Source of the DNA: a virus
DNA length: 64,000 nt
Strand: one strand, 5' to 3'
Virus record (IMG/VR): IMGVR_UViG_3300023313_000001
Span: 124,001 to 188,000 of that record
Part shown: positions 33,051 through 62,467 of the stretch, in pieces
Layout: the number at the start of each line of letters is the position of its first letter
How positions within the stretch are numbered: position 1 is the first letter of the stretch
Notes under the pieces: generated by a model
Seen by the model: the letters and a program-made list of their open reading frames with translations, nothing else
The model's database searches: none
What the model was told of the DNA's origin: nothing
Program-made: the position numbers and the translations under genes

Positions 33051-33079
33051 AAAGCCCGCATATAATGCGGGCTTTTTTT
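33051..33079 (+). terminator. Intrinsic terminator after gp23
   Basis: AAAGCCCGCAT, ATA loop, ATGCGGGCTTT, then more T: 11-bp perfect stem with U-run. Confidence 0.93.
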
Positions 33080-33181
33080 AATCAACAAGGTAATAGTGGG
33101 GGCAAACACGGCAATACCGTAGAATGTTATATCAATGGCACATATAATAACATAGATACATTAATTGGAATTATAATAAGT

Positions 33182-43419: not shown

Positions 43420-45173
43420 GTTTGCTCCCAGCCCCAAACATCATTCCCGCAGTCCCATATTCGGTCATAGTTATTGACTTGCATATTTTCCCACTCAGTC
43501 ATGGTAGAATCAAACGTCGCTAGCTTGTCTTTAAGTTTATGTTTCTGAAAAACGTTCCTAGACATCAATATATTGGTATCACCTTGAATGTTAAAGTAAA
43601 AATAATTAGGTTTTGATGTGTGGGAATAAGTAAATCCAAGCTGTCCATATAATCCACCTGTATTCCAGCGCTTATCAGAATACGTTATAATTGATTTGGG
43701 GTGCTGTGATTTTAAGAAATGTTTAAATAATCTACTGGCTCCTCCCACCACTCCACAACCCATTCGGTTACTATACCGAAGTAACTCATACTCATAATTT
43801 TTGGAAAACCGACTCTTCCCGAAAGTCATACATGCAACAATTTCACCATTGTGGGATAATCCATAATTATATCTTGATCCACACGACCCCTGAATATGAT
43901 TGGCTGATAGAAAGTCTCCTTTCTCCTTAACGGTTAACTCCACTATATTACACTGTCTCGCATAAATGCGACTTGATAAACCTAATAGATTACGTATACG
44001 TGATTTACATATATCATTATTGTACACCCATTCTGATGAAAATATTTGAACTAATCTCACACCAAGCTTGTTACACATATCAGTTTTATTAATGTGGTAT
44101 CTACTGTTTTTACCAGCCAGCTCACTATGCCAACAGACTCCATTATACTCAATAGCGATGTTTAAATCGGGTATGTATATGTCTAATTCCTGTGGAGCAA
44201 TAACGTTTCTAGTGTTAGATATAACTGTTTCCGAGTAAATGACTTTAATAAACGCCAATATTTCAGACTCTGCTACAGATGTAGCAGATTTGTTGAAACT
44301 AATATTAGATCCTTCTGTTATAGTATGGATGTAAGGAAGCGTAGTGTGTAATATGTGTGCTAGTTCAGATTTTGATAAATTATACTCCTTTACAATATCC
44401 TCCACCCAAGACCTGTTAGTTAATATAGTAGATGGATCAACATCCGCATACTGTTTTCGGAGGTCATCTAACACTTCACTGAACCGCTGTGACTTGGTGA
44501 TATTGTGTTTCTGTAGATTTGCTCTTACAAAATACGTGCTAGTATTGTGGCTATCTACCAGTTGATCAATAGTTTTATTGTTAATGATGTATTCGTTATA
44601 TAAGTAATCATAGCTATCAAATAGTTTACGTAGGTGTGGATCCACCATACTCCCAGCGAAAGTGGTTGCACCATATCGTCTTAGGTTGGTGATAGCAGAC
44701 TTTGCTGCTGCTACATCATCTGTGCCATTTTTAACTTTAGTAGCTCTAATTTTAGCTGCTATCGTTGGGTCTTTAGCTGGAATTTCAACTCCATATCTAG
44801 CCATATTGGTGATGGATGCTTGGGTTCTGTTGTTGAAATTTTCGTCACCGTATCTGAGTTTTTTCGTCTCTTTTACACGTTTCACATTATTAGGATCCTT
44901 CCAAGCACAATTATGACTGCAATACTGTTTGAATACACTATTTCGATAATCATAATTAGTAACATTATCACACATACCACATGCAGGCCTGGCAGTATGA
45001 CCATCCATCAGCACTCTGATTTTTAGCTTCATATCGTCACCTTCAATAAAATCTGTTGCATCATGTATTAATGAACAGACCCCAGGATTTTTATCTAATA
45101 TACTTTGGAACTTAGGATTTAACTTATGTTTGGATGTTATTATGTTTATATTACGAAGAATGTCCAAGTTCAT
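43416..45173 (-). CDS. Free-standing Vsr-like homing endonuclease with GNAT-like C-terminal domain
   Basis: 585 residues, opposite strand to its neighbours. N-terminal zinc finger (CGMCDN ... CSHNC), repeated K-x-x-x-x-RYG modules (KKLRYGDENF, MARYGVEIP, LRRYGATTF), an HTH-like segment (TIDQLVDSHNTSTYFV), then the Vsr-like/EDxHD nuclease: QELDIYIPDLNIAIEYNGVCWHS with conserved Asp, Glu and W-H-S. The last 180 residues (NHIQGSCGSRYNYGLSHNGEIVACMTFGKS, SDKRWNTGGLYGQLGF, YDRIWDCGN) form a GNAT- or Mom-like domain found in all its relatives here. It sits between gp15 and gp18 with its own late promoter. Confidence 0.85.
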   Translation of the reverse strand: MNLDILRNINIITSKHKLNPKFQSILDKNPGVCSLIHDATDFIEGDDMKLKIRVLMDGHTARPACGMCDNVTNYDYRNSVFKQYCSHNCAWKDPNNVKRVKETKKLRYGDENFNNRTQASITNMARYGVEIPAKDPTIAAKIRATKVKNGTDDVAAAKSAITNLRRYGATTFAGSMVDPHLRKLFDSYDYLYNEYIINNKTIDQLVDSHNTSTYFVRANLQKHNITKSQRFSEVLDDLRKQYADVDPSTILTNRSWVEDIVKEYNLSKSELAHILHTTLPYIHTITEGSNISFNKSATSVAESEILAFIKVIYSETVISNTRNVIAPQELDIYIPDLNIAIEYNGVCWHSELAGKNSRYHINKTDMCNKLGVRLVQIFSSEWVYNNDICKSRIRNLLGLSSRIYARQCNIVELTVKEKGDFLSANHIQGSCGSRYNYGLSHNGEIVACMTFGKSRFSKNYEYELLRYSNRMGCGVVGGASRLFKHFLKSQHPKSIITYSDKRWNTGGLYGQLGFTYSHTSKPNYFYFNIQGDTNILMSRNVFQKHKLKDKLATFDSTMTEWENMQVNNYDRIWDCGNDVWGWEQT

Positions 45174-47120: not shown

Positions 47121-47152
47121 CCTCAATAAAGTGATTTATTGAGGTATTTTTA
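47116..47152 (+). terminator. Terminator after the sheath gene
   Basis: 15-bp perfect stem: AAATACCTCAATAAA (47116-47130), GTGA loop, TTTATTGAGGTATTT (47135-47149), then TTTA. Confidence 0.85.
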
Positions 47153-47153
47153 T

Positions 47154-48752
47154 ATGCAGGAAACGATACCATGCCAGATATGTGGAAAACACATGAAATG
47201 TATTGGGTGGAGACATTTACAACAACACAACACCACAGTTGACATATACAAACAACAATTTCCACAATCTCCTTTAAGGTCAGAAGCATCTACAGCTAGA
47301 AAATCGAAGTCTGCAAAACTTGCAAACGCCTCACGCAAGGGAGTAGCTAGATCTGATGTTGTGAAAACAAAAATATCACAAGCAAATAAAGGGAAGGATG
47401 CTTGGAATAAAGGCATAGGTATGTCTGACACTCAAAAACAAACACTTTCACAAACCAAGAAAGACCAATACGCAAATGGATCTACTATCCACTGGAATAC
47501 AGGCAATATAACTCCAAACGACGTCAAGAAAAAAATATCAGAAACAGCACTATCCCAATGTCGTACATACAGTGAACCTAGTAAACAAAAAAGACAATCT
47601 ACTATGCAGCAAAAATACGACGATGGATGGGTTCATCCTAGTCATCGTCCAGAGGTGCTTCAGCAACGCAAAAAAACAATGTTCGAACGATACGGCGTAG
47701 ATAATTTTATGCAACAACACATCAACCATTCGGTATTGTTAAAACTTAACGACCGTACCTGGTTAGAAGACCAACACATCACCCAACATAAACCAATCAC
47801 TCAAATTTGTAAGGATTTAGGATTACATTGGAAAAACAGCAATGCTATGGTTAAATCCCGGTTGCTTAAATTTGATATACCACAACAATATGACTTCTCA
47901 TGCTCTTATCCTGAACGTGAACTTAGAGACCTATTAACGGAATGGAATATACCCTTCATAGGGAATGATAGGACTCAGATTAAACCCAAAGAATTGGATA
48001 TATACATTCCATCCAAGTCAATAGCTATTGAATATTGTGGATTGATATGGCACTCGGATGCGTTTGTAGATAAGAACTACCACAAATTAAAAATGGAGCT
48101 ATGTGCTGCAGTAGGAATTAAGTTAATTACTATTTTTGAAGACGAGTGGTTGCATTGTCGTGATATAGTGATAAGTAAACTTCAACAGATACTTGGAATA
48201 TCAAACGATCAACGTATTTTTGCTCGCAACTGTAGTGTTATAGAAATTGAACACCAAACTGCTAAAGAGTTTCTGAACACTAATCACATTCAAGGATATG
48301 GACCATCTAGTATCAACTTAGGGTTGCATTATAATTCGGAATTAGTGGCAGTGGCAGCATATAAACGTGACGGATCCAGTGACTTTATACTAAACAGATT
48401 TGCAACATCGTGTAGTGTGATTGGCGGATTTACTAAGCTTGAACGGTACTTTGATCGTAATTACCATCCTACAATGGTGTCAACATTTGCTGACATGAGA
48501 TGGAGTATTGGAGACTTATACAAAAATACTGGATACACCTTAGTTAACCTGTTGCGTCCAGATTATGCATACATCGACAAATCTTCATTCACTAGAATAC
48601 ATAAATTCAACTTTCGACACCACAATTTACATAATATGTTGGACGTATACGACCCATTACTTAGCGAAACCGAGAATACCAGAGCTAATGGGATACACCG
48701 AATTTATAACTGTGGTTTAATGAAGTTTCAACGTACTAATATGTCCGAATAG
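47154..48752 (+). CDS. Free-standing Vsr-like homing endonuclease with NUMOD3-like motifs and GNAT-like domain
   Basis: 532 residues from ATG 47154; TTG 47139 lies in the terminator stem. N-terminal CQICGKHMKCIGWRHLQQH zinc finger, NUMOD3-like repeats (SEASTARKSKSAKL, KISQANKGKDAWNKG), RYGVDNFMQQ, an HTH (PITQICKDLGLHW), then Vsr-like PKELDIYIPSKSIAIEYCGLIWHS and IFEDEW. GNAT-like C-terminus: NHIQGYGPSSINLGLHYN, FADMRWSIGDLYKNTGY, RIYNCGLMKF. Located between gp18 and small genes leading to gp19. Confidence 0.85.
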   Translation: MQETIPCQICGKHMKCIGWRHLQQHNTTVDIYKQQFPQSPLRSEASTARKSKSAKLANASRKGVARSDVVKTKISQANKGKDAWNKGIGMSDTQKQTLSQTKKDQYANGSTIHWNTGNITPNDVKKKISETALSQCRTYSEPSKQKRQSTMQQKYDDGWVHPSHRPEVLQQRKKTMFERYGVDNFMQQHINHSVLLKLNDRTWLEDQHITQHKPITQICKDLGLHWKNSNAMVKSRLLKFDIPQQYDFSCSYPERELRDLLTEWNIPFIGNDRTQIKPKELDIYIPSKSIAIEYCGLIWHSDAFVDKNYHKLKMELCAAVGIKLITIFEDEWLHCRDIVISKLQQILGISNDQRIFARNCSVIEIEHQTAKEFLNTNHIQGYGPSSINLGLHYNSELVAVAAYKRDGSSDFILNRFATSCSVIGGFTKLERYFDRNYHPTMVSTFADMRWSIGDLYKNTGYTLVNLLRPDYAYIDKSSFTRIHKFNFRHHNLHNMLDVYDPLLSETENTRANGIHRIYNCGLMKFQRTNMSE

Positions 48753-49494: not shown

Positions 49495-49521
49495 AAAAAG
49501 ACAACTACATGTTGTCTTTTT
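49495..49521. terminator. Bidirectional terminator overlapping an endonuclease 3' end
   Basis: AAAAAGACAAC, TACAT loop, GTTGTCTTTTT; A-run on one side and T-run on the other. The minus-strand endonuclease stop codon (49505-49507) lies inside it. Confidence 0.85.
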
Positions 49522-51181
49522 TATTCCACACCCATACTGAATTACCACAATCCCAGATCCTGTCATAGCCATTGTTTACCATATTATCCCATTCCGTCAA
49601 TTCTACATCAAACATCTGTAGTCTATCTTTCAACTTATGTTTTTGGAATTGCATTCTACTGAACAAAACCAACCGATCTGAATTGTGGAAATACATATAA
49701 TTCGGTGGACTATAATGACTGAAACTGAAACTCAATTGCCCATACATAGCTCCAGTGTTCCACGATCTATCAGCGTATGACACTACAGACGATGGGTGGA
49801 TTTGTCTAATAAAATGTTTGAATAATTTAGATGCCCCACCAACCACTGTGGAGTCAATTTTTGAACAATACCTCAATAACTCGTACTCGTATTTGTTAGA
49901 GAATCTACTTTTACCAAACGTCATACATGCCACCAACTCACTACCATACATTAACCCGTATCGCACATGAGACTTACATGCCCGCTGTAGGTGGTTAACA
50001 TCTACAAAAATATTAGCAGCCTTAGAGCTAAGTTCTACAATAGTAGTTGACCGTCCATAGATTCTACTACCTGATACTCCCAATTTAGCTCGGATCCTTG
50101 ATTTTACCACAGACTGGTGCAGCACCCACTGGTCCTGGCGTAAATGTATCAACTGTATTCCTTGAGTATTACACATTTTGGTCTTCATCAAATGGTAATC
50201 TTTCGTCTTTCCTTTTGAGTCAGAATGCCAATATATTCCATTAAACTCTATTGCGATACCATGGTCTGGCAACACTATATCTAACTCATATGGTTTAATA
50301 ATACTCCGAACATGTCTATTTACTGTTACATTTAATGACTCCAAAAAAGAACAAACTTCGTTTTCTCCAGTAGAGTTGGATGATGACACCGGTAAATCGA
50401 AATATTTGAATCTGGACGTTAATAATGGTTGTGACACGTTTAATGTTTTCGCAATTTCTGTCAACGATCGTCCCTGCATATGTTGATCCAATAACCATTT
50501 CGGGTCATGCAGTTTTTCATATACATCTATCCAGTCATCTCCATTAAATCCCGTATATCTTGCCCAGGTAGCAGCACGTTCATATAACTCTCCCGAATGT
50601 AGGTGGTGTACACGAGTATGAGAGATCTGTTCTCGAACAGAATCCGTCATGGCATGTGTGGTACCGTAACGTTCCATACATGTTTGTTGTTTTTTATCTT
50701 GAGATTGAGTAGACGACACATTCCATTCGGTACCATACTTACGTAAATTAGTTTGCTTTAACTTAGCTTGCACTTGGGTAGACTGTAAAGCATGCTTTAC
50801 TCCCAACACGTTAAATCTATCTTCAGCCACCCTATGGGTCATTTTAAAATAATTGTCTACACCATAATGGTTCATAGTCGTCTGTTTACGCTTAGTTAAT
50901 AAATCACCACCCTCATGTACACATTTATTTGAGCAAAATTTGCGATATTCGTGTGTTGAATCATTCCAAGTAACTGTGCCAACCTTACAATGGGAACACA
51001 CTACCAACTCAGATTCCTTATGTATAATATGCCACATTCGCTGTCTCAGCCCAGATTTTATTGGTAGAAACAAGGTAGCCTTTTTAATAACATCATATTT
51101 TACGGTATTTAACTTGATCCAAGACCTAAAATTTGACAATGCTGATAGTTCTATAATTATTTCTTGTAATTTGTGGTCCAT
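49505..51181 (-). CDS. Free-standing Vsr-like homing endonuclease with GNAT-like C-terminal domain
   Basis: 558 residues. Zinc finger CSHCKVGTV ... CSNKC, repeats RKQTTMNHYGVDNYFK, LRKYGTEWNVSSTQ, CMERYGTTHAMT, an HTH (SLTEIAKTLNVSQPLL), Vsr-like KPYELDIVLPDHGIAIEFNGIYWHS, and the shared C-terminal domain (NHLQRACKSHVRYGLMYG, YADRSWNTGAMYGQLSF, YDRIWDCGN). Its closest look-alike is the gene at 43416, also on the minus strand. The last codons are encoded by the terminator hairpin. Located just before gp19. Confidence 0.85.
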   Translation of the reverse strand: MDHKLQEIIIELSALSNFRSWIKLNTVKYDVIKKATLFLPIKSGLRQRMWHIIHKESELVVCSHCKVGTVTWNDSTHEYRKFCSNKCVHEGGDLLTKRKQTTMNHYGVDNYFKMTHRVAEDRFNVLGVKHALQSTQVQAKLKQTNLRKYGTEWNVSSTQSQDKKQQTCMERYGTTHAMTDSVREQISHTRVHHLHSGELYERAATWARYTGFNGDDWIDVYEKLHDPKWLLDQHMQGRSLTEIAKTLNVSQPLLTSRFKYFDLPVSSSNSTGENEVCSFLESLNVTVNRHVRSIIKPYELDIVLPDHGIAIEFNGIYWHSDSKGKTKDYHLMKTKMCNTQGIQLIHLRQDQWVLHQSVVKSRIRAKLGVSGSRIYGRSTTIVELSSKAANIFVDVNHLQRACKSHVRYGLMYGSELVACMTFGKSRFSNKYEYELLRYCSKIDSTVVGGASKLFKHFIRQIHPSSVVSYADRSWNTGAMYGQLSFSFSHYSPPNYMYFHNSDRLVLFSRMQFQKHKLKDRLQMFDVELTEWDNMVNNGYDRIWDCGNSVWVWNKKDNM

Positions 51182-51914: not shown

Positions 51915-53390
51915 ATGTCATCTAACCCTGCATGTGATACATTAGAAGCTGCTAAAACTCAAGCATTCAACGATGCGATAAATTATAAAGACGCCTTTGG
52001 AAGTCCATCAACATGGACTGATGCTGTTTGGACAGAATATAATAGACTGATATCTATATACAACGATCGTAGCGCAGAATATGTGGATTGTTTGTTGGGT
52101 AAAAGTAAGAGCCCCGAGACACTTGCAGCTGAAGCTCGTGGGGACGATGGATCTCAACAAACACGAATATCCGCTGCCGGAAATGCGAGTGGACAACAGA
52201 CCCCTTGTGACCCAGCCAAATCTAGCGGAAATAACCCAGCATCACTAACTATCGTAGATCGTGCAAAAAATGCCTTTGGTAAATCTATAGGTCAACAAGC
52301 ATTCAATATGATACAAGATAAAGTGCCTGCATTCGCTGTAGGTGCTAATGTTAACTCAAACGTACGCGCGTTGGCAGATGCTGTGAATTCTGGGGTATCT
52401 AGTTATGCCACTTCAGGTGTTAACGCAGCTTTGGGAGACGTATACTCAGCAGCAGGAATCAATCCAAATGTGCTCCCAGCTAATCCAAATCAAGCGTCCA
52501 TCTTTGATAGTGGTAATACTGCTGCAAATTTTTTAGCAGACAGAATGATAGCAGGTACCATTGAAGCTGCTGATCTACCTGCTCCCATCAGTGCATTATC
52601 TAATATGGCTAATGTACAGCAAGCATCATCTGAAGTATCCACAGATATCACTTCACCTGGATGTGGAGTTAGTGCGTATGCACGTGACCTAATTGAATAC
52701 GCTCCAAAACACAATTTTATGTTTTTTGTGGAATTCACGTTTAACTCAGATTACACAGATATGGGAATTAAACGCCATCACAATACAGCATCAGATATCA
52801 AATTTCACATGTTAAGTCGCCAATTTACCAGACCTAACGTTAGTGTGGAGTATGAAGATGTTAATATGTACAACTTTCATACTAAGGTAGCTAAACGTGT
52901 GGTGTACGATCCCCTAAACATTAAGCTGTTTGATGATATTAAAAATGAATCCATTGTATTTTTAGAAAAATATCTCAAAGCTCGTAGTCCAGTGGCCAGG
53001 TATGACACCAATGGTTTATACGAAACAGCTGGAATGGATTATCAGTCTGCTAATGATGGCAACTTAACTGGATTAAACAACACTCAAGGATCATCGGCTT
53101 CTATGGGAGGGTATGTGAATGATAATAGATCTATACTCAAGCAAATCAGTGTGTATCATATATTTGGCGGTGGAAATAAAGTGAATAGATACACCTTCAT
53201 TAATCCAAAAATAATGCAATTTGATATGAGTGACTTTGATATGGAAAATGGCACAGAACCTGCGTCAATCGATATCCAAGTGGCATATGATTCAATGTTT
53301 ATTGAATCAGGACTCGACGTGTCCCTCAGTCAATTGGATCACGATTCTAGATTGGGTAAACGATTCCTAGGTAAATTTGGAAAACAGTAA
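51915..53390 (+). CDS. Tail-tube-like baseplate protein, putative gp54 analogue
   Basis: 491 residues from ATG 51915 (GGAG upstream; GTG 51909 also in frame). The N-terminal 240 residues are Ala/Ser/Asn-rich and low complexity. From about 265 (KHNFMFFVEFTFNS, HMLSRQFTRPNVSVEYEDVNMYNFHTKVAKRVVYDPLNIKLFDDIKN) the strand pattern matches tube-like proteins gp19, gp48 and gp54. gp54 starts the tube on the baseplate. The assignment is by pattern and exclusion, since gp48 appears to be at 15195; other tube-like junction proteins are possible. Confidence 0.55.
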   Translation: MSSNPACDTLEAAKTQAFNDAINYKDAFGSPSTWTDAVWTEYNRLISIYNDRSAEYVDCLLGKSKSPETLAAEARGDDGSQQTRISAAGNASGQQTPCDPAKSSGNNPASLTIVDRAKNAFGKSIGQQAFNMIQDKVPAFAVGANVNSNVRALADAVNSGVSSYATSGVNAALGDVYSAAGINPNVLPANPNQASIFDSGNTAANFLADRMIAGTIEAADLPAPISALSNMANVQQASSEVSTDITSPGCGVSAYARDLIEYAPKHNFMFFVEFTFNSDYTDMGIKRHHNTASDIKFHMLSRQFTRPNVSVEYEDVNMYNFHTKVAKRVVYDPLNIKLFDDIKNESIVFLEKYLKARSPVARYDTNGLYETAGMDYQSANDGNLTGLNNTQGSSASMGGYVNDNRSILKQISVYHIFGGGNKVNRYTFINPKIMQFDMSDFDMENGTEPASIDIQVAYDSMFIESGLDVSLSQLDHDSRLGKRFLGKFGKQ

Positions 53391-53392
53391 CT

Positions 53393-53836
53393 ATGGCGAA
53401 ATCTAAAACTGGATGGATGCAAGGACTATACACTCCAAACCACCCTGAAAAATATAAAGGTGATTTATCCAAAATCGTTTTTAGATCCTCGTGGGAGCTA
53501 ACCTTTGCTAAATTCCTGGATGGCAATCCAAATGTACTAGAGTGGGCCTCTGAAGAATTCCATATCCCGTATTTTAATCCAATCAAACAAAAAAATTCTC
53601 GATATTACCCTGATTTCTGGGTTAAATATAAAAACAAACATGGTGATATAATCCAAGAAGTGGTAGAAATAAAACCAAGCAACCAAGTCCAACGCCCGAA
53701 ACGAAATAATAAATACGAACAAGCCACGTGGTATACCAACATGGCTAAGTGGGAAGCAGCAATTCAATTCTGTAAGGGAAGAGGTTTAAAATTCCGAGTG
53801 CTTACAGAAAAAAGCATATTCAAAAATGGGAAATAA
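53393..53836 (+). CDS. gp4: Head completion protein gp4 (TnsA-like nuclease fold)
   Basis: 147 residues closely following T4 gp4: NHPEKYKGDLSKIVFRSSWELTFAKFLDGNPNVLEWASEEFHIPYFNP, YYPDFWVKYKN and VVEIKPSNQVQRPKR. E in SSWE, D in YPDFW and E-x-K in VEIKP form a PD-(D/E)xK site as in TnsA. gp4/gp50 acts in finishing filled heads before tail joining. Two bases separate it from the upstream stop. Confidence 0.93.
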   Translation: MAKSKTGWMQGLYTPNHPEKYKGDLSKIVFRSSWELTFAKFLDGNPNVLEWASEEFHIPYFNPIKQKNSRYYPDFWVKYKNKHGDIIQEVVEIKPSNQVQRPKRNNKYEQATWYTNMAKWEAAIQFCKGRGLKFRVLTEKSIFKNGK

Positions 53837-53842
53837 CACTAA

Positions 53843-54382
53843 ATGACTGATAATTTCGATAATTTTCAAAAGCAACAACTAGTTGAGAAACAAATACCTC
53901 ACCCGTGTGAGACTGTATTTGATATTGAAGATGGTTCAACAACTATTGTATCAGCCCCCCCAAGAACTACCAACTTAGTACAGCCAGACCACTACGATAC
54001 TAAAGATCAGGAAATTGAAGAACAATTCCAAGAAATATATGATAAGTCTATGGACACATTCGATGACATGCAGCGAGACATGGAGGGTATTGAAGGTAAG
54101 TACAAAGCTAGGAATGGTGAAGTTAGCGTGGCATTTTTAAACACTGCACTTAATGCTGCTAAAGAAAAAGCTCGTGTAAAAGAGCACAAAGATAAACTAT
54201 CACCACTACCAAATGATGGTAAGGTTGTGAATAACACTCAAATTAACGTATCCACTTCAGACATCATTAAAATGTTAGCTGATCGCAGAGATCCTGCGAA
54301 CAACTATGTCCCAGATGAGGAAGATCTTGTCACCCCACAAAGGACCACCATAAAAAGAAAGAAGAAAGATGATCCATCATAA
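53843..54382 (+). CDS. gp16: Terminase small subunit gp16
   Basis: 179 residues with the gp16 layout: acidic N-terminus, central long coiled coil (EEQFQEIYDKSMDTFDDMQRDM, then SVAFLNTALNAAKEKARVKEHKDKL), then VNNTQINVSTSDIIKMLADR, comparable to the T4 gp16 C-terminal segment, and a basic tail (TTIKRKKKDDPS). gp16 rings recognise DNA and stimulate gp17. Usually gp16 abuts gp17; here two genes intervene. Confidence 0.78.
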   Translation: MTDNFDNFQKQQLVEKQIPHPCETVFDIEDGSTTIVSAPPRTTNLVQPDHYDTKDQEIEEQFQEIYDKSMDTFDDMQRDMEGIEGKYKARNGEVSVAFLNTALNAAKEKARVKEHKDKLSPLPNDGKVVNNTQINVSTSDIIKMLADRRDPANNYVPDEEDLVTPQRTTIKRKKKDDPS

Positions 54383-54385
54383 ATA
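54378..54385 (+). promoter_or_regulatory. Late promoter CATAAATA
   Basis: CATAAATA overlapping the gp16 stop, about 57 nt before the lysine-rich repeat gene. Confidence 0.6.
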
Positions 54386-54441
54386 CTTTTGAACACACGC
54401 AAATAAGTGCGCAAACATTACCTTTCTAGGAGATACACTAA

Positions 54442-54876
54442 ATGAACACCAATACTGAAAATCGTCAACACTTACGCAAAATGCTAGATGCCATCATCAA
54501 TGAAGATATGGATACAGCCAAAACAGCCTTCCATGACTATGTAGTCAACCGATCTAAAACTATCCTAGAAATGGACTGTTGTGATCCAGTAGGCGGTACT
54601 GGAACAGCTGACCCAAAATCAGCTAAAGGCTCTAGCGATGTAAAAGCTTCCATGAGTAAAACTGCAAAAGATGAAATCGCTAAAAAAGGTGAAGCAAAAG
54701 CTGATCCAAAGGCTGCTAAAGGCTCCAAGGATGTGAAAAGTACTATGAAACGTGGTAAGGCTATTCCTAAAAAAGGTGAAGCAAAATCTGATCCAAAGGC
54801 TGCTAAAGGCTCAAAGGATGTTGAAGGTACCATGAAAAAAGCTGATGATAAAAACATCACTGGTAAGAAAAACTAA
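54442..54876 (+). CDS. Lysine-rich tandem-repeat protein, possible prohead core or DNA-binding protein
   Basis: 144 residues. N-terminus (LRKMLDAIINEDMDTAKTAFHDYVV) is helical and resembles small proteins that precede head genes in related phages. From residue about 53 it has three imperfect copies of a 25-30 residue repeat (KKGEAKADPKAAKGSKDV and KKGEAKSDPKAAKGSKDV are near identical), very rich in Lys, Ala, Ser and Asp. Likely disordered; could be an internal head protein. AGGAG precedes the start and a terminator follows, so it is a separate late unit. Confidence 0.75.
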   Translation: MNTNTENRQHLRKMLDAIINEDMDTAKTAFHDYVVNRSKTILEMDCCDPVGGTGTADPKSAKGSSDVKASMSKTAKDEIAKKGEAKADPKAAKGSKDVKSTMKRGKAIPKKGEAKSDPKAAKGSKDVEGTMKKADDKNITGKKN

Positions 54877-54902
54877 AAGAATTCCCTGCTACCTTAGGGT
54901 AT

Positions 54903-54936
54903 AAACCATATCAGTTTCACGATTGATATGGTTTTT
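54903..54936 (+). terminator. Intrinsic terminator after the lysine-rich gene
   Basis: AAACCATATCA (54903-54913), 10-nt loop, TGATATGGTTT (54924-54934), then TTCTTT. Confidence 0.85.
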
Positions 54937-54970
54937 CTTTATGTGGAAGGTCAGCAACACCCGTCAGTAC

Positions 54971-54978
54971 GGTAAATA
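54971..54978 (+). promoter_or_regulatory. Weak late octamer GGTAAATA before the terminase block
   Basis: GGTAAATA 27 nt before the start at 55006, the only octamer-like site ahead of the dead paralogue and gp17. Confidence 0.35.
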
Positions 54979-55005
54979 CTACAACATCGATAGGTATAGT
55001 TCACA

Positions 55006-55755
55006 ATGAATAAAACTCTCAACACGTTATTAGCTCACTTCACTTCGGAACAAAACTGGTGGGACCAGTTCCATCTAGCATACCTGATGAATCCCACAGC
55101 ATTCATAGAAGACTGTATCACACTAAATACAGCCCCTATACAATTACTTCAGCATCAACGTGACCTCGTTGAAATATATGAATATCATGACCATGTGTAT
55201 GTTGCATCTGCTAGACAAGTGGGGTTATCTACAATAAACAATGCATTTATGCTTTGGCAATGTGTATTCCAACACGACACATCTATTCAAATTTTTGCAC
55301 AAGACGATACTGGAGCATGTGATCTGAGAACAATACGGCAAATGTATGACTCTCTACCTAACCAAGTACGAGCTAGAGTGAAAATTCAACTTCATAAAAC
55401 TACTCATGGAATACTATCGTTCGACAATGGGTCCTCTATCACTGTACTGTCAACCAGTTTCAATGCTCTGCATGGCATCCCACCAGCAGATGTACTACAC
55501 ATAGTACGTCCATCTATGTTTTCTACCAAAAACTTACAAGAAGTAGAACAAGCGTTGATACACCCAACTGTTCATGCTGGTGGATCAATACAAGTCACCG
55601 ATTGCATCAATGCTAACCTAGAGTTAATAAACACGCATGCTATGTTTGCTTGTAAAATTCCATGGAACGTGGTGCCTGGACGAGATCAACAATTCAAAGA
55701 CGACACTATTCGCAGAATAGGACAGCAAGCCTGGAATGACGACTATGGGGATTAA
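55006..55755 (+). CDS. Catalytically dead paralogue of the terminase large-subunit ATPase domain
   Basis: 249 residues alignable along its length with the ATPase half of the gp17 encoded next to it. VYVASARQVGLSTINNAFMLW matches VVVLSARQTGK-S-ITSAIFLLW, but Walker A Lys is Leu74. ADVLHIVRPSMF replaces LLYLDEFAF (Walker B Asp-Glu gone), and QVTDCINA replaces the SSTPNG C-motif. KIPWNVVPGRDQQFKDDTIRRIGQQAWNDDY matches VKWDEPPGRGEQFK ... ELKWAQEYE. The protein stops (YGD) where gp17 has its split intein. The frame is intact with no stops, so it is probably maintained. Perhaps a non-catalytic packaging partner or regulator; function unknown. Two bases separate it from gp17. Confidence 0.8.
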   Translation: MNKTLNTLLAHFTSEQNWWDQFHLAYLMNPTAFIEDCITLNTAPIQLLQHQRDLVEIYEYHDHVYVASARQVGLSTINNAFMLWQCVFQHDTSIQIFAQDDTGACDLRTIRQMYDSLPNQVRARVKIQLHKTTHGILSFDNGSSITVLSTSFNALHGIPPADVLHIVRPSMFSTKNLQEVEQALIHPTVHAGGSIQVTDCINANLELINTHAMFACKIPWNVVPGRDQQFKDDTIRRIGQQAWNDDYGD

Positions 55756-55757
55756 AT

Positions 55758-57443
55758 GTGGCTAAAAATATAAATATAAAAAAAGCATACACTACCCAAG
55801 ACCTCTCAACTGAACAGATTACAGAAATCGACAGATGTATGTACGGGTGCATTAACCAGACCACTGGCATCCAGGAATGTGGGCCTATATACTTTGCCAA
55901 AAATTATGTTAGAATCCAACACCCCAAACGTGGAGATGTACCATTTCTATTATATCCATACCAAGAAAAAATGATGGACACATATCTCAACAACAATAAA
56001 GTGGTGGTGTTATCTGCTCGCCAAACAGGAAAGGAACAGCCACATACTGCACGTATAGCCACTCCTACCGGTTGGGTCACTATGGGGGACATTCAGCCTG
56101 GGGATACCGTATTGACTCCTGATGGTAGCACGTCAACAGTCATCCAAAAACATCCTCAAGGAACTAAGCAAGTCTATCGTATTACGTTTGACGATGGGTC
56201 GTTTGCTGAATGTGGAATTGATCATTTATGGAGTTGTAATATTCATGATAGATTATCTTCCGACACTAGCACCAGTACAGTGCCAACATCTGAATTAATT
56301 ACAATGATGGATAACGATCACGTATACCAATATCGCATAGACATACCTCTAGTGGATGTAGTCAATTTTAATGAGCAACAATTGACAATGGACCCGTTTG
56401 AGCTTGGTGTGCAATTGCGAACAAATACATCTTCACAATCTCACATACCAGAAGTATACTTACGTAGTTCACCAAACCAACGTACAGCATTATTGAACGG
56501 ATTGATATCCAATAAATCCATCAGCAAGAAATTTACTGTTTCTCATATAACCTCAAAACAACTACGGTCAGACATCCAACAACTAGTATGGAGTCTAGGT
56601 GGTACCTGTTCATATAATACAACAAGTGAACAAGACGATACTGTGTACGAACTGTATATAGAACCACCATCACTATCAGGTACACTTAAACGAACAATTA
56701 TATCTATCAATGCTGTGAGACACGAACAATCATCGTGTATATCAATCGATCACCCAAAACAGTTGTATATCACAGACAATTTCACTGTCACACATAACAG
56801 CATAACATCCGCCATATTTTTATTGTGGTTTGCTATGTTTAATCCTGATAAGACATTATTAATCGCAGCCAACAAAAACGATCTAGCCATTGAGATGATT
56901 CAACGTATCCAGTACGCATATGAGTTCTTACCCATGTGGTTGAAACCTGGGGTTACTGACGACGGTTGGAATAAACATAGTATAAAATTTGATAACAAAT
57001 CTCGCATTGTTTCTACTGCAACATCTGCTAACTCTGGTCGTGGTATGTCTATATCGCTTTTGTATTTGGATGAATTTGCGTTTGTAGCACCAAACATTCA
57101 AGAAGAATTTTGGACCTCAATTCTACCAACATTATCTACTGGTGGTGCTTGTATAATGTCGTCCACACCAAACGGAGCAGTGGATAAGTTTGCTAGCATT
57201 TGGCGTGCAGCCAATATGGAAAATAATACTGATGGTCTGTTGTTTAAGGCTATTGAAGTCAAATGGGACGAACCACCAGGACGAGGCGAACAATTTAAGC
57301 GTGATCATATTGTAATGTTGGGTGAACTTAAATGGGCTCAGGAATATGAGTGTTGCTCAGGTGATACTGTAGTAACATTACAGGATGCTGTTGGTAATAT
57401 ATTGCAAAAAACGCTAAAGGAACTATACAGTGAGTTGGGTTGA
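55758..57443 (+). CDS. gp17: Terminase large subunit gp17, N-terminal piece with class-3 intein and split-intein N part
   Basis: 561 residues from GTG 55758. Order: N-extein 1-92 ending ...VLSARQTGK (Walker A), class-3 intein 56034-56798, extein 56799-57350 (184 residues) with Walker B LLYLDEFAF and C-motif SSTPNG, then split-intein N part from Cys at 57351 to the TGA at 57441. After cis splicing, SARQTGK joins SITSAIFLLW and restores the P-loop. The protein then needs trans splicing with the product of 59054 to become active gp17, the packaging motor and head-filling nuclease. Total mature extein: about 529 residues, normal for the family. Confidence 0.9.
   Translation: MAKNINIKKAYTTQDLSTEQITEIDRCMYGCINQTTGIQECGPIYFAKNYVRIQHPKRGDVPFLLYPYQEKMMDTYLNNNKVVVLSARQTGKEQPHTARIATPTGWVTMGDIQPGDTVLTPDGSTSTVIQKHPQGTKQVYRITFDDGSFAECGIDHLWSCNIHDRLSSDTSTSTVPTSELITMMDNDHVYQYRIDIPLVDVVNFNEQQLTMDPFELGVQLRTNTSSQSHIPEVYLRSSPNQRTALLNGLISNKSISKKFTVSHITSKQLRSDIQQLVWSLGGTCSYNTTSEQDDTVYELYIEPPSLSGTLKRTIISINAVRHEQSSCISIDHPKQLYITDNFTVTHNSITSAIFLLWFAMFNPDKTLLIAANKNDLAIEMIQRIQYAYEFLPMWLKPGVTDDGWNKHSIKFDNKSRIVSTATSANSGRGMSISLLYLDEFAFVAPNIQEEFWTSILPTLSTGGACIMSSTPNGAVDKFASIWRAANMENNTDGLLFKAIEVKWDEPPGRGEQFKRDHIVMLGELKWAQEYECCSGDTVVTLQDAVGNILQKTLKELYSELG
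56034..56798 (+). mobile_element. Class-3 intein in the gp17 Walker A loop
   Basis: 255 residues, EQPHTARIATPTGW to TVTHN, followed by Ser +1. Residue 1 is Glu, not Cys/Ser/Ala. The class-3 W-C-T set is present: Trp in block B (GIDHLWSC), Cys at block F (SSCISIDHP) and Thr before the terminal His-Asn (TVTHN). The middle holds a remnant LAGLIDADG-type domain, IPEVYLRSSPNQRTALLNGLISNKS, where the acidic residue of the DxDG end is lost, so the endonuclease is probably dead. Insertion at GK/S of the P-loop is a common class-3 site. Confidence 0.85.
57351..57440 (+). mobile_element. Split intein, N-terminal part (30 residues), gp17
   Basis: CCSGDTVVTLQDAVGN to YSELG. The first Cys is taken as residue 1 because C-x-x-GDT matches AceL-TerL IntN and leaves extein EYE joined to CEFLSSD. 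The split is far upstream of the usual split site, as in atypically split (VidaL/AceL) inteins. Confidence 0.85.
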
Positions 57444-59061
57444 TGTTTATAAGTCATTAACATACTTAGTTGATGAGTTTAAACACAAACCTCCATCAAG
57501 TAACTTTAGTAGGTGGCGAACTGAGGAATTCCACTTATTGAAAGAAGCTACATCATTTTTATCAGATGCTGCATCTGCCAGTGAGCGGTTGTGGTACATT
57601 GATCATAGACAACACCATGCAACTTTGTGCAGAATATGTAATAAAAACTTATTATCGTGGATTAATAAAGAACGAGATTACAGAGCCACATGCGGTAAAT
57701 GTAATGGTAAACTACCTGCAACTGCAGCTAAACGCAAAGCAACTATGCTGGAAAGATATGGTGTTGAAAGTTATACTCAGCATGACCAATTCAATGACAA
57801 ACGTATATCTACCAATCAACAACAGTATGGAACTGATTGGGGACTTCAATGTCCACACATTCAAGATAAACGCAAAAGTACCATGATGGAACGATATGGT
57901 GCTGAAAACACTTTACAGTCGCCTGTACTAAAACAAAAAGTCATTAATACTCTTCAACAAAAATATAATGTCAAACATAATTCACAAACAACACATTGGC
58001 GTGAGTCTGTAAGGCAAACTTTTCTTGAAAACCTGGGTGTTGAACATAATACCCAACTTCAAATAGACCCAGTATCGTTAATTAAGTTAAATGATCGGAA
58101 TTATCTAAAATCAAAACATATCACTGAACAAATTCCACTACATGTTATAGCCAAGGAATTACAAGTTAACCAAACCACAGTAGCCAATTATTTTAGAAAA
58201 CACGATATAACTATTCAACGATTTCCGAAATCATATGGTGAGCGAACACTAAGCGAATTTATCCAACAACTAGGAATAATTGTAATAAATGGAGATAGAT
58301 CAATAATCCAACCATACGAATTAGATATTGTATTACCTGAACATAAAATAGCCATAGAATACTGTGGTTTATTCTGGCACTCTGAAACTTGTGGAAAAGA
58401 CAAACGATACCATGAAATGAAAATGAAGTTAGCTAATGCAGCAGGGTACAGACTGTTAACAATATATGAAGATGAGTGGGTTAAACGAACCAACCAAGTC
58501 AAGAATAAAATTAAACATATGTTAGGAATGTCTGTGGATAAAGTATATGCTAGAAAATGTACTGTCGAACTAGTAGACAACAAGCAGGAATTTTTCGATA
58601 AACACCACATCCAAGGATCAGGTCCAGGCAGCATAACATTCCAGTTAGTGGTGAATGAACGACCTTGTGCCATGATGACATTTATTCAATGTAAAAACCA
58701 ATCTTTCTATTTGAACAGATATGCAACATCAATGAGTGTCGTCGGTGGTTTTAGTAAATTGTTGAAACACTTCGAAAAAAATATTAAATGGTCTAAAATA
58801 ATATCATTTGCAGACCTGAGGTGGAGTGATGGTAATTTATATCGTCAGTGTGGTTTTGAACTGGATGGAATAATCCCACCTGATTATTATTACTCACCCA
58901 ATGGCGTAGATCGATACCATAAATCTAATTATAGACATGCACAATTACCTAAGCGATTAGCTAACTACGATCCAACCAAAACTGAATGGGAAAATTGTGA
59001 TGTCAATGGAATTCATCGTATTTGGGATTGTGGTAAAATGAGGTTTGTGAGATATGCCTGA
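57430..59061 (+). CDS. Vsr-like homing endonuclease lodged between the gp17 halves
   Basis: 543 residues from GTG 57430, overlapping the gp17 N-piece by 14 nt; AAGGA lies 8 nt upstream. Zinc finger CRICNKNLLSW ... CGKC near 66-90, repeats KATMLERYGVESYTQ, QQQYGTDWGLQCPH, STMMERYGAENTLQ and LQQKYNVKHNSQ, HTH (PLHVIAKELQVNQTTV), Vsr-like QPYELDIVLPEHKIAIEYCGLFWHSET (about 285-315) and IYEDEW, then the GNAT-like C-terminal domain (HHIQGSGPGSITFQL, FADLRWSDGNLYRQCGF, RIWDCGKM). It matches the endonuclease type described for fractured genes. The stop overlaps the C-piece start by 8 nt. Confidence 0.88.
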   Translation: MSWVDVYKSLTYLVDEFKHKPPSSNFSRWRTEEFHLLKEATSFLSDAASASERLWYIDHRQHHATLCRICNKNLLSWINKERDYRATCGKCNGKLPATAAKRKATMLERYGVESYTQHDQFNDKRISTNQQQYGTDWGLQCPHIQDKRKSTMMERYGAENTLQSPVLKQKVINTLQQKYNVKHNSQTTHWRESVRQTFLENLGVEHNTQLQIDPVSLIKLNDRNYLKSKHITEQIPLHVIAKELQVNQTTVANYFRKHDITIQRFPKSYGERTLSEFIQQLGIIVINGDRSIIQPYELDIVLPEHKIAIEYCGLFWHSETCGKDKRYHEMKMKLANAAGYRLLTIYEDEWVKRTNQVKNKIKHMLGMSVDKVYARKCTVELVDNKQEFFDKHHIQGSGPGSITFQLVVNERPCAMMTFIQCKNQSFYLNRYATSMSVVGGFSKLLKHFEKNIKWSKIISFADLRWSDGNLYRQCGFELDGIIPPDYYYSPNGVDRYHKSNYRHAQLPKRLANYDPTKTEWENCDVNGIHRIWDCGKMRFVRYA

Positions 59062-59413
59062 TAAGATGAAATATAATACAACTGGTTATCAAATACTAAC
59101 AGATAGTGGGTTCAGACCGTTTGTGGGCATATCAATGATGGGAAAACAGATGCTCCTAAAGTTTGAGTTCAACGATGGAACATCAATTGAAGTTACTCCA
59201 GGCCATAAATTTATCTATAACACCAAACTGATTGACGGTGAGATTGTAGGTGTACCTATTCATGCAAACGTGTTGTCAGTGGGTGATCAAATATCCACGA
59301 TGGATGGCGAAGTTGAGATCGTAAGTATATGTGAAAGCACTGACCAGCAAACGTACGATTTAATTGAGGTTGGTGATCACAAGTATAAAACTAACTCAGT
59401 AATATCCCACAAC
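59054..59413 (+). mobile_element. Split intein, C-terminal part (120 residues), gp17
   Basis: MPDKMKYNTTGYQILTDSGF to TNSVISHN, then Cys +1 (CEFLSSD). Block B-like VTPGHKF, block F-like TYDLIEVGDHKYKTNSVISHN with penultimate His and terminal Asn. It follows AceL-TerL IntC in order and size (104 residues there). Confidence 0.87.
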
Positions 59414-60175
59414 TGTGAATTTTTATCATCAGATCCATTGTTAATAGATTCCATGGTGATTGGACAACTGGAAAGTAATGTCAGCTTACCTATCCGCGAA
59501 GATATGGGATTTAAATTTTGGAAACAACTACTCCCAAATAAAACATATTTAATTGGAGTCGATCCGGCAACTGGATCTGGTGAGGATTTTTCTACAATAC
59601 TAGTATATGATTTTCAAGATCTATCCATGGTTGCAGAATGGCGGTCAAACACCATGTCGTCCCCTCAATTGTATGCTGCACTCAAATTGGTACTCAAACA
59701 AATCGAATCGCACCAAAGTATGGCATATTTCTCAATAGAAAACAATGGTGTGGGAGAGGGGGTGATTGCGTTATATGAAAATGACGAAAAATTACCGGAA
59801 AATTGTGAGTTTGTATCTGAAGAAGGCGGAAACCGATTGGGCATGCGGACTGAAAGTCGTGTCAAACTACGAACATGTATGGTGATGAAACAATTAGTTG
59901 AATCTGGAAAAATAGAGATTAAATCTGAAATGATGCTGCGTGAATTGAAAAGTTACGTGTCCACTAGAGGATCGTACGCTGCTCAAATAGGTGCAACAGA
60001 TGATCTTATATCTGCATTGCTAATTGTACTCAGACTATTATCAGAGATGGCAACGTATGAACAACGAGCTCATGAATTGATGAACCAATATGATGATATT
60101 GGTTCATTTAGTGCTGAAGATACAGAGGGAGTATATGATGATGATAAATTTATTCCGGACAGCTTTGTTTTTTAA
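59054..60175 (+). CDS. gp17: Terminase large subunit gp17, C-terminal piece (split-intein C part + nuclease domain)
   Basis: 373 residues: IntC 1-120, then 253 extein residues starting CEFLSSDPLLID. RNase H-like nuclease residues are visible: Asp in LIGVDPATGSGEDFS, Glu in YFSIENNGVGEG and Asp in GATDDLISALLIVLRL. C-terminal acidic tail. Trans splicing to the N-piece gives ...WAQEYE-CEFLSSD.... Start overlaps the endonuclease stop, implying translation reinitiation. Confidence 0.9.
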   Translation: MPDKMKYNTTGYQILTDSGFRPFVGISMMGKQMLLKFEFNDGTSIEVTPGHKFIYNTKLIDGEIVGVPIHANVLSVGDQISTMDGEVEIVSICESTDQQTYDLIEVGDHKYKTNSVISHNCEFLSSDPLLIDSMVIGQLESNVSLPIREDMGFKFWKQLLPNKTYLIGVDPATGSGEDFSTILVYDFQDLSMVAEWRSNTMSSPQLYAALKLVLKQIESHQSMAYFSIENNGVGEGVIALYENDEKLPENCEFVSEEGGNRLGMRTESRVKLRTCMVMKQLVESGKIEIKSEMMLRELKSYVSTRGSYAAQIGATDDLISALLIVLRLLSEMATYEQRAHELMNQYDDIGSFSAEDTEGVYDDDKFIPDSFVF

Positions 60176-60224
60176 TATAACCCAAGTATAGTCACAATAT
60201 CATTTACTAACACAGAACATTCCA

Positions 60225-61337
60225 ATGTCTACTACTTACAAATACCAGTTTGAAGAATTCTATACCAATTTCCAACAGATGTATCTATTCCAACGTATGG
60301 TGAACACCACTGAAAATACCCATTGGCATCGGGAAGATAATGTTGGAGTTCATACCAACATGGTAGTACAAGAGTACATTCAACGATCACCTAAACGATG
60401 GTCACGAGCAGACTACCTAGGTGCAATTGCCTGTGCATTCCACGATGTTGGAAAACCCAACGCAGAACAGTACATCCAAGATAGTAGTGGAGGCCATAAC
60501 ACTTACAAAGGCCATGAACAGATATCAGCTAGAAAATTTGAACTATTTACATCAGATAATCCAGATTGGCTCTTGCTAGATCCGATGGACATTGCAGCAG
60601 TTTGTTGGATGATACAACACCATCTACCATACAGAACTACTAAAACACATAAATTAAATGCCCTCAAGACTACGGCAACATTCTTTAATGTTTTCGACCA
60701 ATTCCTTCGTTTGGTAATGTCTGATCAATATGGTCGTGTATCAGATGACCACGACTTAAATAAGTTATCATTGATGGAGTGGATCATGCAGTTCATATTT
60801 AAATCCACTAATAAAGAATGTTGGTTGAATATTCATAGTAAACCAATAGTATACATGTTAGTGGGGGCATCTAGTTCTGGTAAGTCTACCTTAACAAAAC
60901 AATTACTACAAGAACACGGAGCATATAATGTGTCTGTGTTCAACATGGATAAATGTAGATTAGATTGGTATTCATTAGATGACTCTAATAATTCTGAGTT
61001 GGATAGATACCAGTACGCTTTCAAACAATCATGTGATGATCCAGATTTTACCAAACGGACAAATTCTGTATTCACAGACATGCTGCAAACTCAGAAAACT
61101 GTGATAGTTGACAACATGAATCTCACATCTAAATCCAGAAAGCGCATCTTTACGGAAGCTGCTAACAATGGATACCACGTTATCAGTATTGTCATGCAGA
61201 CTCCTTTATCTACTTTATGTGACCGTAACGAACTACGTGGAGATAGATCCCTCCCGAACGACCTTCTCATAAATATGTATTCCAGACTATCGTATCCAAC
61301 CATAGCTACAGAATGTCATGAAATTAGGGTGAATTAA
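60225..61337 (+). CDS. HD-Pnk-type polynucleotide end-healing enzyme
   Basis: 370 residues, two domains. HD phosphohydrolase, about 40-150: HTNMVVQEYI, AFHDVGKP (H-D), HEQIS, IQHHLPY. P-loop kinase, about 205-370: MLVGASSSGKSTLTK Walker A, DKCR, NMNLTSKSRKRI, RNELRGDRSL lid. This domain order is that of bacterial HD-Pnk enzymes, where HD removes 2',3'-cyclic phosphate and the kinase phosphorylates 5'-OH. For a phage, it would repair tRNA or DNA breaks from host nucleases. No ligase is seen in the window. It starts 49 bp after gp17. Confidence 0.82.
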   Translation: MSTTYKYQFEEFYTNFQQMYLFQRMVNTTENTHWHREDNVGVHTNMVVQEYIQRSPKRWSRADYLGAIACAFHDVGKPNAEQYIQDSSGGHNTYKGHEQISARKFELFTSDNPDWLLLDPMDIAAVCWMIQHHLPYRTTKTHKLNALKTTATFFNVFDQFLRLVMSDQYGRVSDDHDLNKLSLMEWIMQFIFKSTNKECWLNIHSKPIVYMLVGASSSGKSTLTKQLLQEHGAYNVSVFNMDKCRLDWYSLDDSNNSELDRYQYAFKQSCDDPDFTKRTNSVFTDMLQTQKTVIVDNMNLTSKSRKRIFTEAANNGYHVISIVMQTPLSTLCDRNELRGDRSLPNDLLINMYSRLSYPTIATECHEIRVN

Positions 61338-61338
61338 T

Positions 61339-61842
61339 ATGACTGTGAGGTTACCAATAGAAATGATGCTAGAAAGTTCCATGGATGATCTAATCTCATC
61401 CACAACTCAAGCATTTCCTGACCGATCGGAAAAAGTAAACAATGTTAGAATAACAAACAAAACCTATCAGAAATTAGATGGAGATAAGTTACTGGTGAAG
61501 GCCAAGTGTGCTGGAGAAACAAATGATTACGATACACAGGTGTTATATAATTCAGTACAATATGTAGAGGGAGGAAATCCCGAATCTATCACACTAAATG
61601 GTGGATTCAATATTCTACCGATTTCATCCGACTCCGACGTCAAAGTTGGCTGTACTTGTTTAGATTTCCATTGGACATTTGCTTGGCAAAATTCTAGTGA
61701 TGGTAGCTTAATGGGAGATCCACCGTCCCCATACCAACGAAAGACTGATAGAGCACCCCGTAACCCAACCAACGCGATTGGATTATGTAAACATCTACTC
61801 AAGCTACATGCAGATATGACGGCTGAGGGGCTACTTGGATAA
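61339..61842 (+). CDS. SWIM-zinc-finger-like protein of unknown function
   Basis: 167 residues. The C-terminal half has CTCLDFHWTFAW ... GLCKHLLKLHADM, the C-x-C...C-x-H arrangement of SWIM zinc domains, which bind DNA or proteins. The N-terminal part is beta-rich. Found one base after the HD-Pnk stop, so probably the same transcript. Function unknown; related phages carry such a gene near structural genes. Confidence 0.65.
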   Translation: MTVRLPIEMMLESSMDDLISSTTQAFPDRSEKVNNVRITNKTYQKLDGDKLLVKAKCAGETNDYDTQVLYNSVQYVEGGNPESITLNGGFNILPISSDSDVKVGCTCLDFHWTFAWQNSSDGSLMGDPPSPYQRKTDRAPRNPTNAIGLCKHLLKLHADMTAEGLLG

Positions 61843-61843
61843 G

Positions 61844-62467
61844 TTACTTATCCAATTCTTTTAATAATAGCTTAACCTTTCTATCCTTTTTGCCTTTATC
61901 ACTGAGTTGTTCATACGGATGGTCAGTCTTGAAAAACTGGTATCCGTTTGGTAACACTTGGTTTACTGGAACCTCATCCAGACCCTCAGTCACACTAGCT
62001 TTCTTCGTATCAGACTTTTTGGGTGCGGAAGTAGACTTTTTCTTCTCAGCAGACTTTTTCTTTTCAGCAGACTTCTTCTTCCCAGTAGAATCTTTGATCT
62101 TTATGGTATCTTTCCCACCCTTAATTGGTTTTGGTGTTTTGATCGGTGGAACTTCCACTGAAGGAGCTATCTCAATACTATTTTTCCCAACAACCAGAAG
62201 GTTTCCCTTAACTGGTTCAAAATAAAAATCATCTACTATAACACATAATACATATTTGTACTTACCTTCGTCTAATAATTCCTTAGGGATAGTTGTTTTC
62301 CAACGTACACCAGACACATGACTACACTGGATGGTGTAATGCAACGTCGTAGATACAGCAACGTCTAATATTACTCTACCAGTTTTAATGTCCAACCCTT
62401 GGGCTGTTGCATCAAACTCAAACTTATTGTCTATATTGCGACCTACAGTAATATCTTCCATTGTCAT
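61844..62467 (-). CDS. Unrecognised protein with lysine-rich repeat linker
   Basis: 207 residues. N-terminal 100 are beta-sandwich-like (VILDVAVSTTLHYTIQCSH, YKYVLCVIVDDFYFEPVKG). A linker of KKKSAEKKKSAEKKKSTSAPKK follows in about 130-155 and the C-terminus is charged (GKKDRKVKLLLKELDK). Last of a three-gene minus-strand operon with 4-bp and 1-bp overlaps. Probably structural. Confidence 0.65.
   Translation of the reverse strand: MTMEDITVGRNIDNKFEFDATAQGLDIKTGRVILDVAVSTTLHYTIQCSHVSGVRWKTTIPKELLDEGKYKYVLCVIVDDFYFEPVKGNLLVVGKNSIEIAPSVEVPPIKTPKPIKGGKDTIKIKDSTGKKKSAEKKKSAEKKKSTSAPKKSDTKKASVTEGLDEVPVNQVLPNGYQFFKTDHPYEQLSDKGKKDRKVKLLLKELDK

Follow-up and report, generated by a model that had tools for sequence, protein, structure and literature searches.

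Genes fractured by a split intein, with the intein halves surrounding a free-standing Vsr-like endonuclease gene, were reportedly recognized by Dassa et al. in 2009, and the split intein of the large terminase (TerL) known as AceL-TerL lies directly before a Cys-Glu-Phe (CEF) motif. The split inteins of AceL-TerL and GOS-TerL, together with Cat, an engineered consensus of the two, have N-terminal (IntN) and C-terminal (IntC) parts of 25+104, 37+115 and 30+104 residues, respectively (PMC11766414). Class 3 inteins, defined by a Trp-Cys-Thr (WCT) motif together with an internal cysteine of block F that serves as the nucleophile (PMC7664689), have been published in the TerL1 of mycobacteriophages (PMC5050341). 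Here we describe the T4-type TerL gene (terL, gp17) of the virus record IMGVR_UViG_3300023313_000001. The gene lies in a stretch of 64,000 nucleotides (positions 124,001 to 188,000 of the record), hereinafter designated the window; all coordinates are window positions, and the record surveyed comprises 229,507 bases and may be a fragment. It is a fractured terL that contains an AceL/GOS-type split intein, a Hef-type nuclease gene in the gap and a class 3 intein in the Walker A motif.

The gene consists of three overlapping open reading frames (ORFs) on the plus strand. The first ORF (55758..57443), the TerL N piece, starts with GTG and encodes 561 residues, which comprise N-extein 1, the class 3 intein, N-extein 2 and IntN, followed by a stop codon. 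N-extein 1 (55758..56033, plus strand, 92 residues) has the C-terminal end SARQTGK, while N-extein 2 (56799..57350, plus strand, 184 residues) contains the Walker B motif LYLDEF and has the last residues WAQEYE. The second ORF (57430..59061) encodes the Hef-type (Vsr-like) homing endonuclease of 543 residues, with a GTG start preceded by AAAGGA. The third ORF (59054..60175), the TerL C piece, starts with ATG and encodes 373 residues, comprising IntC and a C-extein (59414..60172, plus strand, 253 residues) that starts with Cys-Glu-Phe and contains the RNase H-like nuclease domain. The N piece and the endonuclease ORF overlap by 14 nt, the endonuclease ORF and the C piece by 8 nt. Terminase_6N matches the N piece (E 1.7e-11), Terminase_6C matches the third ORF (E 9.9e-12), and the TerL family PHROG 36964 matches the N piece at E 1e-70 and the C piece at E 1.6e-23. 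The initial annotation, which placed gp17 in two pieces with an endonuclease ORF between them and overlaps of 14 and 8 nt, thus agrees with the ORF coordinates and with both sets of family matches.

Once both inteins are removed, the ATPase and RNase H-like domains of a T4-type TerL are continuous. The joined exteins have 529 residues and are 48.8% identical over 560 columns to the uninterrupted TerL of phage XacN1, gap-free at both joins. The spliced length falls within the 512–545 residues of stop-to-stop ORFs in 16 uninterrupted loci of the clade. Apart from an ATPase-domain paralog directly upstream, described below, no second intact TerL was found in the 229,507-base record, itself possibly a fragment. 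Because the sequence derives from a single metagenomic virus record, an assembly chimera or a broken pseudogene might be suspected; since all three overlapping ORFs are intact, with plausible ribosome-binding sites at their starts, and phage isolates have the same gene order, we consider such an origin exceedingly improbable.

IntN (57351..57440, plus strand) comprises 30 residues, begins with Cys1 in the sequence CCSGDTVV directly after WAQEYE, and is complemented by the 120-residue IntC (59054..59413, plus strand), which has the block B His and the block G His-Asn and ends in SHN directly before CEF; both halves are translated as the initial annotation described them. The split is atypical, with a short IntN (known range 25–37 residues) and a long IntC. 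Among all sequences of the Protein Data Bank (PDB), the best match to the joined halves is CatC (6dsl_B; E 4e-7, 33.5 bits), located in the IntC part, while the sole match to a 33-residue IntN query up to E 10 is CatN (6dsl_A; E 0.036). As both halves find Cat (PDB 6dsl) best among solved structures, the likeness to AceL-TerL proposed from the letters alone is upheld. The block B His and the block G His-Asn are invariant in 14/14 aligned IntC sequences, and Cys+1 is invariant in the eight IntC sequences aligned together with exteins.

An intron that splices itself out at the RNA level, rather than an intein, would also join the two pieces, and RNA-level splicing has a precedent in terL of phage ICP1 (PMC10448857). 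However, no Rfam family matches positions 53300–62500 up to E 0.5, the gap is flanked by coding sequence that matches the two Cat halves, and the overlaps of stop and start codons suit three translated ORFs. With intein blocks present, a group I or group II intron was rejected; we regard this explanation as very improbable.

A contiguous intein of 255 residues (56034..56798, plus strand) lies between GK and S of Walker A, so that the interrupted motif reads SARQTGK/EQPHTARI...VTHN/SITSA; this insertion explains why the N piece exceeds the length of an ATPase domain. The initial annotation did not mention this second intein. Position 1 of the intein is Glu rather than Cys or Ser, and W66, C235 and T253 form the WCT motif. 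By eye, the intein also contains a degenerate LAGLIDADG-like segment. The solved structures that match it best, 6bs8/6own, 6rix and 6riy (E 2.8e-9 to 2.5e-8), are inteins of replicative helicases, and their W, C and THN line up with those of the window intein in the alignments inspected. They are class 3 DnaB inteins (for M. chimaera DnaB1, PMC7664689).

A class 3 Walker A intein in a T4-type TerL is not peculiar to this phage. From 28 records in which at least 80% of the N piece was matched, we opened six isolates with a match that spanned most of the piece without a break: fENko-Kae01, RaK2, Synechococcus B23, Slicko01, Eowyn and Makalu_002. In each of them Walker A is interrupted after GK by an intein that, read by eye, contains W, C and THN and starts with none of Cys, Ser and Thr. 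An intein of class 3 at this TerL site is thus a known kind too. TerL is a single ORF in each of the six, and the IntC profile finds no split intein in any of them. The TerL of Klebsiella phage Eowyn (L087 3767–6706; labels of this form denote loci) is so divergent that the N-extein profile misses it, and its intein is the closest found to the Walker A intein of the window (31.9% identity over 276 columns), which hints at a transfer of the intein between TerL families.

The gap ORF belongs to a homing endonuclease family (PHROG 3339, E 1.1e-113). Its prediction as an endonuclease therefore stands, while the Vsr-likeness proposed with it consists of two weak Pfam matches (MTES_1575, E 5.5e-5; Vsr, E 0.0092), both beneath the Pfam cut-offs. 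Nine Hef-type ORFs, behind 10 matches, are present in the record; further ones in the window lie at 33065–34807, 43416–45173, 47139–48752 and 49505–51181. The gap endonuclease is 41.8% identical over 503 residues, 46.8% over 329 and 35.9% over 621 to Hef proteins of its own genome, and 28–35% identical to phage relatives among the 40 matches listed of 410 records; hef of phage U5 is among the tblastn matches. As its nearest relatives found are encoded by the same genome, the sequences suggest that a resident Hef gene moved into an older break in terL, although nearer relatives may be missing from the collections.

A Hef-type gene likewise interrupts DNA polymerase B (PolB) of the same genome (G000:C1:105320–110439; L047 2321–7440), and DNA_pol_B matches both pieces. 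No intein part was seen at the PolB break by eye or in a PF14890 search. The PolB C piece contains a contiguous mini-intein at YGD/TDS.

We consider it highly probable that two independent inteins, one of class 3 acting in cis and one split and acting in trans, together with a Hef-type mobility gene, explain the locus. The ATPase piece would be made with its P-loop interrupted, and the class 3 intein would remove itself in cis through C235 of block F, restoring the junction of GK and S. IntN, with Cys1, would bind IntC of the separately translated nuclease piece to form one HINT domain, and trans-splicing would then join EYE to CEF to yield the 529-residue TerL. The Hef-type endonuclease would be the mobility part, cutting intein-free terL of co-infecting phages, into which the block of IntN, homing endonuclease gene (HEG) and IntC would be copied. 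Because of the class 3 intein in Walker A, trans-splicing alone, the reaction on which packaging depends in the initial annotation, would yield no active motor, and two different splicing reactions would be needed. The anatomy of the locus, its signature residues, the empty sites of relatives and the block insertion in other phages are seen in the sequences, whereas we infer both splicing reactions, the cleavage and homing, and the dependence of packaging on splicing.

Relatives of the locus define the empty site. With the C piece as query, 19 viral-contig loci were found (L006/L017 and L007/L008 are likely copies), of which 16 have TerL uninterrupted at the linker site and three have it broken (L002, L003 and L019; L003 and L019 are identical over the region). 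In the 16 uninterrupted loci the residue at the +1 position is Cys in 14 and Thr or Val in two (L016 and L018). At the DNA level, the IntN-HEG-IntC unit is a single block within a collinear terL in all four pairs compared. L027 and L071 (Walker B site) have flanks 95.0 and 97.5% identical, gap-free over 1,288 and 2,088 bases; L026 and L065 (linker site) have flanks 88.6 and 78.7% identical; and the flanks of L002 (linker site) are 77.4 and 75.1% identical to L012, and 74.7 and 67.5% to L010.

The split-intein family extends well beyond these loci. Relatives of IntC were found at E 0.01 in 81 of 50,697 phage records (60 listed; the count includes GenBank as well as RefSeq copies). In the records that were opened, the family occupies the linker site in PX29, Va1, 1.244.A, VP-1 and PSTRCR_127; Walker B in TG1, JK32, SRB7757, Thanatos-2, HY03, PspYZU05, NCTC12673 and CP21; and Walker A in VP-1 and CP21. 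In the annotation of Aeromonas phage PX29 (GU396103), 17A 'contains putative N-intein' and 17B 'contains putative GIY-YIG endonuclease and C-intein'. Four opened isolates, PSTRCR_127, TG1, HY03 and PspYZU05, have overlapping ORFs in the sequence N piece, nuclease, C piece (intein parts by hidden Markov model, HMM). The initial annotation correctly saw a fractured gene as reportedly defined by Dassa et al., here a T4-type TerL in which the halves of a split intein enclose a free-standing homing endonuclease gene. Its further claim that the full genomic context is a novelty is not supported, because PX29 and the four isolates already hold such an arrangement in full phage genomes.

The occupant of the break differs from phage to phage. 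It is HNH_3 with NUMOD3 in L002 and a DUF7487/MTES_1575 Vsr-like gene with one in-frame stop in L003 (the family being assigned from the second half only). Va1 has DUF559/MTES_1575 fused to IntC, while SegE-type GIY-YIG is fused to IntC in PX29 and free in PSTRCR_127. GIY-YIG is fused to IntN in 1.244.A and VP-1. A TnsA-like nuclease is free in TG1, fused to IntN in JK32 and also present in Thanatos-2, HY03 and PspYZU05, and CP21 has T5orf172. The gap of L052, a locus whose stretch is identical in L053 and L054, measures 463 bases and holds only a decayed remnant of a nuclease like that of L003 (matched in pieces, with a best tblastn E of 6e-11), and both intein halves are open despite the decay of the HEG. 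SRB7757 has a contiguous intein without a nuclease. Taken over all relatives, the endonucleases in the break are unrelated to one another and either free or fused, or a decayed remnant is left.

Two Campylobacter phages have other arrangements. The TerL pieces of NCTC12673 (L032, L075) lie ~27 kb apart on opposite strands, the N piece, which has IntN at Walker B, near 46 kb (minus strand) and the C piece, which has IntC, near 73 kb (plus strand); by its gene layout, this TerL would need splicing between the products of distant genes. TerL of CP21 (L031 1508–5815) has three inteins of the family, at Walker A, just before Walker B (split) and at Walker B, the last of which terminates in Ser-Asn rather than His-Asn.

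The two TerL pieces might instead remain unspliced, with ATPase and nuclease as separate subunits, as in genes in pieces, and the intein halves as relics. The break coincides with the natural border between ATPase and nuclease domains, and the PolB break, where no intein part was seen, provides an example of this kind in the same genome. However, the splice-site residues of IntN, IntC and the +1 Cys are kept here and in aligned relatives, and in L052 both halves are open although the HEG has decayed. Changes in IntC of related phages are mostly synonymous, with substitution ratios of 0.03 (TG1/HY03) and 0.08 (L003/L052) at near-saturated synonymous change; the IntN row, cut out of frame, was unused, and among the phages with inteins most synonymous distances were almost saturated or could not be computed. 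The Walker A intein has to splice regardless. Separate subunits are therefore unlikely, and we retain cis-splicing at Walker A together with trans-splicing at the linker as the preferred reading.

Several observations weigh against this reading or against parts of it. The match of IntN to CatN is weak by itself, and a structure model of IntC was of low confidence (predicted local distance difference test, pLDDT, 47; 4 rows) and was discarded, lending no support. The grouping of the gap HEG with two copies of its own genome has moderate support only (84/89). A close intein-free relative of this phage was not found, the best extein identity being 49%, so that insertion is not demonstrated at the DNA level for the window locus. 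Trees were calculated for 39 TerL exteins, leaving out near-duplicates (L008, L017, L019, L053, L054 and L070), L035, of which the profile found only part of the C-extein, and L032, which has no N piece at that place; the row of L031 was mislabelled 'none' despite holding inteins. On the extein tree the linker-site label requires 7 changes, a number as low being reached in 78/500 shuffles of the labels, and at least 6 changes by strongly supported branches. The three site labels together require 11 changes; since a number as low is reached in only 5/200 shuffles, the labels as a whole cluster to some degree. Resolution of the intein tree is poor, with 4 of 17 inner branches strongly supported.

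Directly 5' of terL lies a TerL ATPase-domain paralog of 249 residues (55006..55755, plus strand; PHROG 5989, E 3.1e-19), which is not part of the split intein. Its Walker A motif reads SARQVGLST, with the Lys lost, and the catalytic Glu is lost too. Counterparts are located directly upstream of TerL in L005, L009, L011–L015 and L018. In all nine paralogs, including that of the window, the Walker A Lys is replaced (by L, M, I, M, T, I, I, A and F) and the catalytic Glu of Walker B is lost, with Asp in its place in five; the Arg and the second Gly of the motif (R70 and G73) are invariant. Six of the nine end 1–2 residues beyond CEF, the split-intein site. The best PDB match of a structure model of the paralog (pLDDT 76.6) is T4 gp17 (E 5.2e-14). 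The pair L013/L014 is under purifying selection (ratio 0.11, synonymous distance dS 0.65), and the wider pair L009/L013 has a ratio of 0.37. The paralog ORF is absent from the fetched stretch at L003, L004, L006, L007, L010, L016, L020 and L052; a guess that Xanthomonas phage XacN1 or Sinorhizobium phage Phosso would have it was not borne out, and the window paralog as search query found no relative. No mention of such a paralog was met in the literature search or in the accessible part of a jumbo-phage review (PMC7824862). Our guess is that it is a partner or regulator of the packaging motor.

In Acinetobacter phage PhT2 (L025 3860–4300), a 146-residue 'hypothetical protein' between terS and terL looks like another TerL ATPase paralog in a degenerate state (E 6e-20 by iterated HMM); its row, the tenth aligned, is too degenerate to score. 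In the window, a small ORF at 54442–54876 with internal repeats of the type KGEAKxDPKAAKGSKDVKxTM lies between a terS-like ORF (PHROG 445, E 3.4e-6) and the paralog.

We tentatively suggest a wider reading, which is possible rather than probable. The break in terL may be an old, fixed opening in an essential protein, a docking bay that endonucleases of unrelated families enter and where they become fused, decay and give way to others, whereas the split intein itself can no longer be lost. A resident Hef may have replaced an earlier occupant in this phage, the motor may need class 3 splicing in cis at the P-loop and class 1 splicing in trans between ATPase and nuclease before it can pump, and the dead twin upstream may join the motor or its regulation. 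The series of relatives, with the site empty, contiguous or occupied by HNH, Vsr-like, GIY-YIG or TnsA-like, decayed or fused nucleases, allows endonuclease turnover at one fixed break to be tested. With class 3 splicing at the P-loop and a class 1 split intein at the domain border, two splicing chemistries become comparable in one protein, and a distant natural relative of AceL/GOS-TerL enlarges the pool for protein-labelling tools. The ATPase-dead paralogs are a puzzling neighbour of the motor gene, and the single close pair that was tested shows purifying selection.

The core arrangement of the locus is already known, and its combination of two inteins is unusual. A class 3 intein and a split intein in one TerL were seen in the window alone, among the profile-searched loci and the six isolates opened for the Walker A intein (the HMM scan covered the loci other than the re-fetched stretches L050, L051 and L055–L064 and the own-genome loci). 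The window intein resembles those of AceL-TerL, GOS-TerL and Cat in its TerL host, its short N part, Cys1 (AceL and Cat) and Cys+1; unlike them it is distant in sequence, with an IntC of 120 residues, a Hef-type HEG in the gap and a second intein class in the gene. In contrast to the fractured genes of Dassa et al., it resides in a 229.5-kb virus record with nine Hef-type ORFs, and its gap gene is itself of the Hef family (PHROG 3339). For this gap HEG the closest known systems are Hef of phage U5, with which it shares PHROG 3339, and the EDxHD enzymes, the 40 phage matches listed being 28–35% identical to it. Aeromonas PX29, Providencia PSTRCR_127 and Vibrio Va1, VP-1 and 1.244.A share the linker site, the intein family and a nuclease in the break, although that nuclease is GIY-YIG (Vsr-like in Va1) rather than Hef. 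Yersinia TG1, Escherichia HY03 and Pseudomonas PspYZU05 share the three overlapping ORFs and the intein family, whereas their break is at Walker B (DE/CAF) instead of the linker and their nuclease is TnsA-like. The ATPase and nuclease exteins of RaK2, fENko-Kae01, B23, Slicko01 and Makalu_002 match the window TerL (five of the six isolates), while the TerL of Eowyn is distant.

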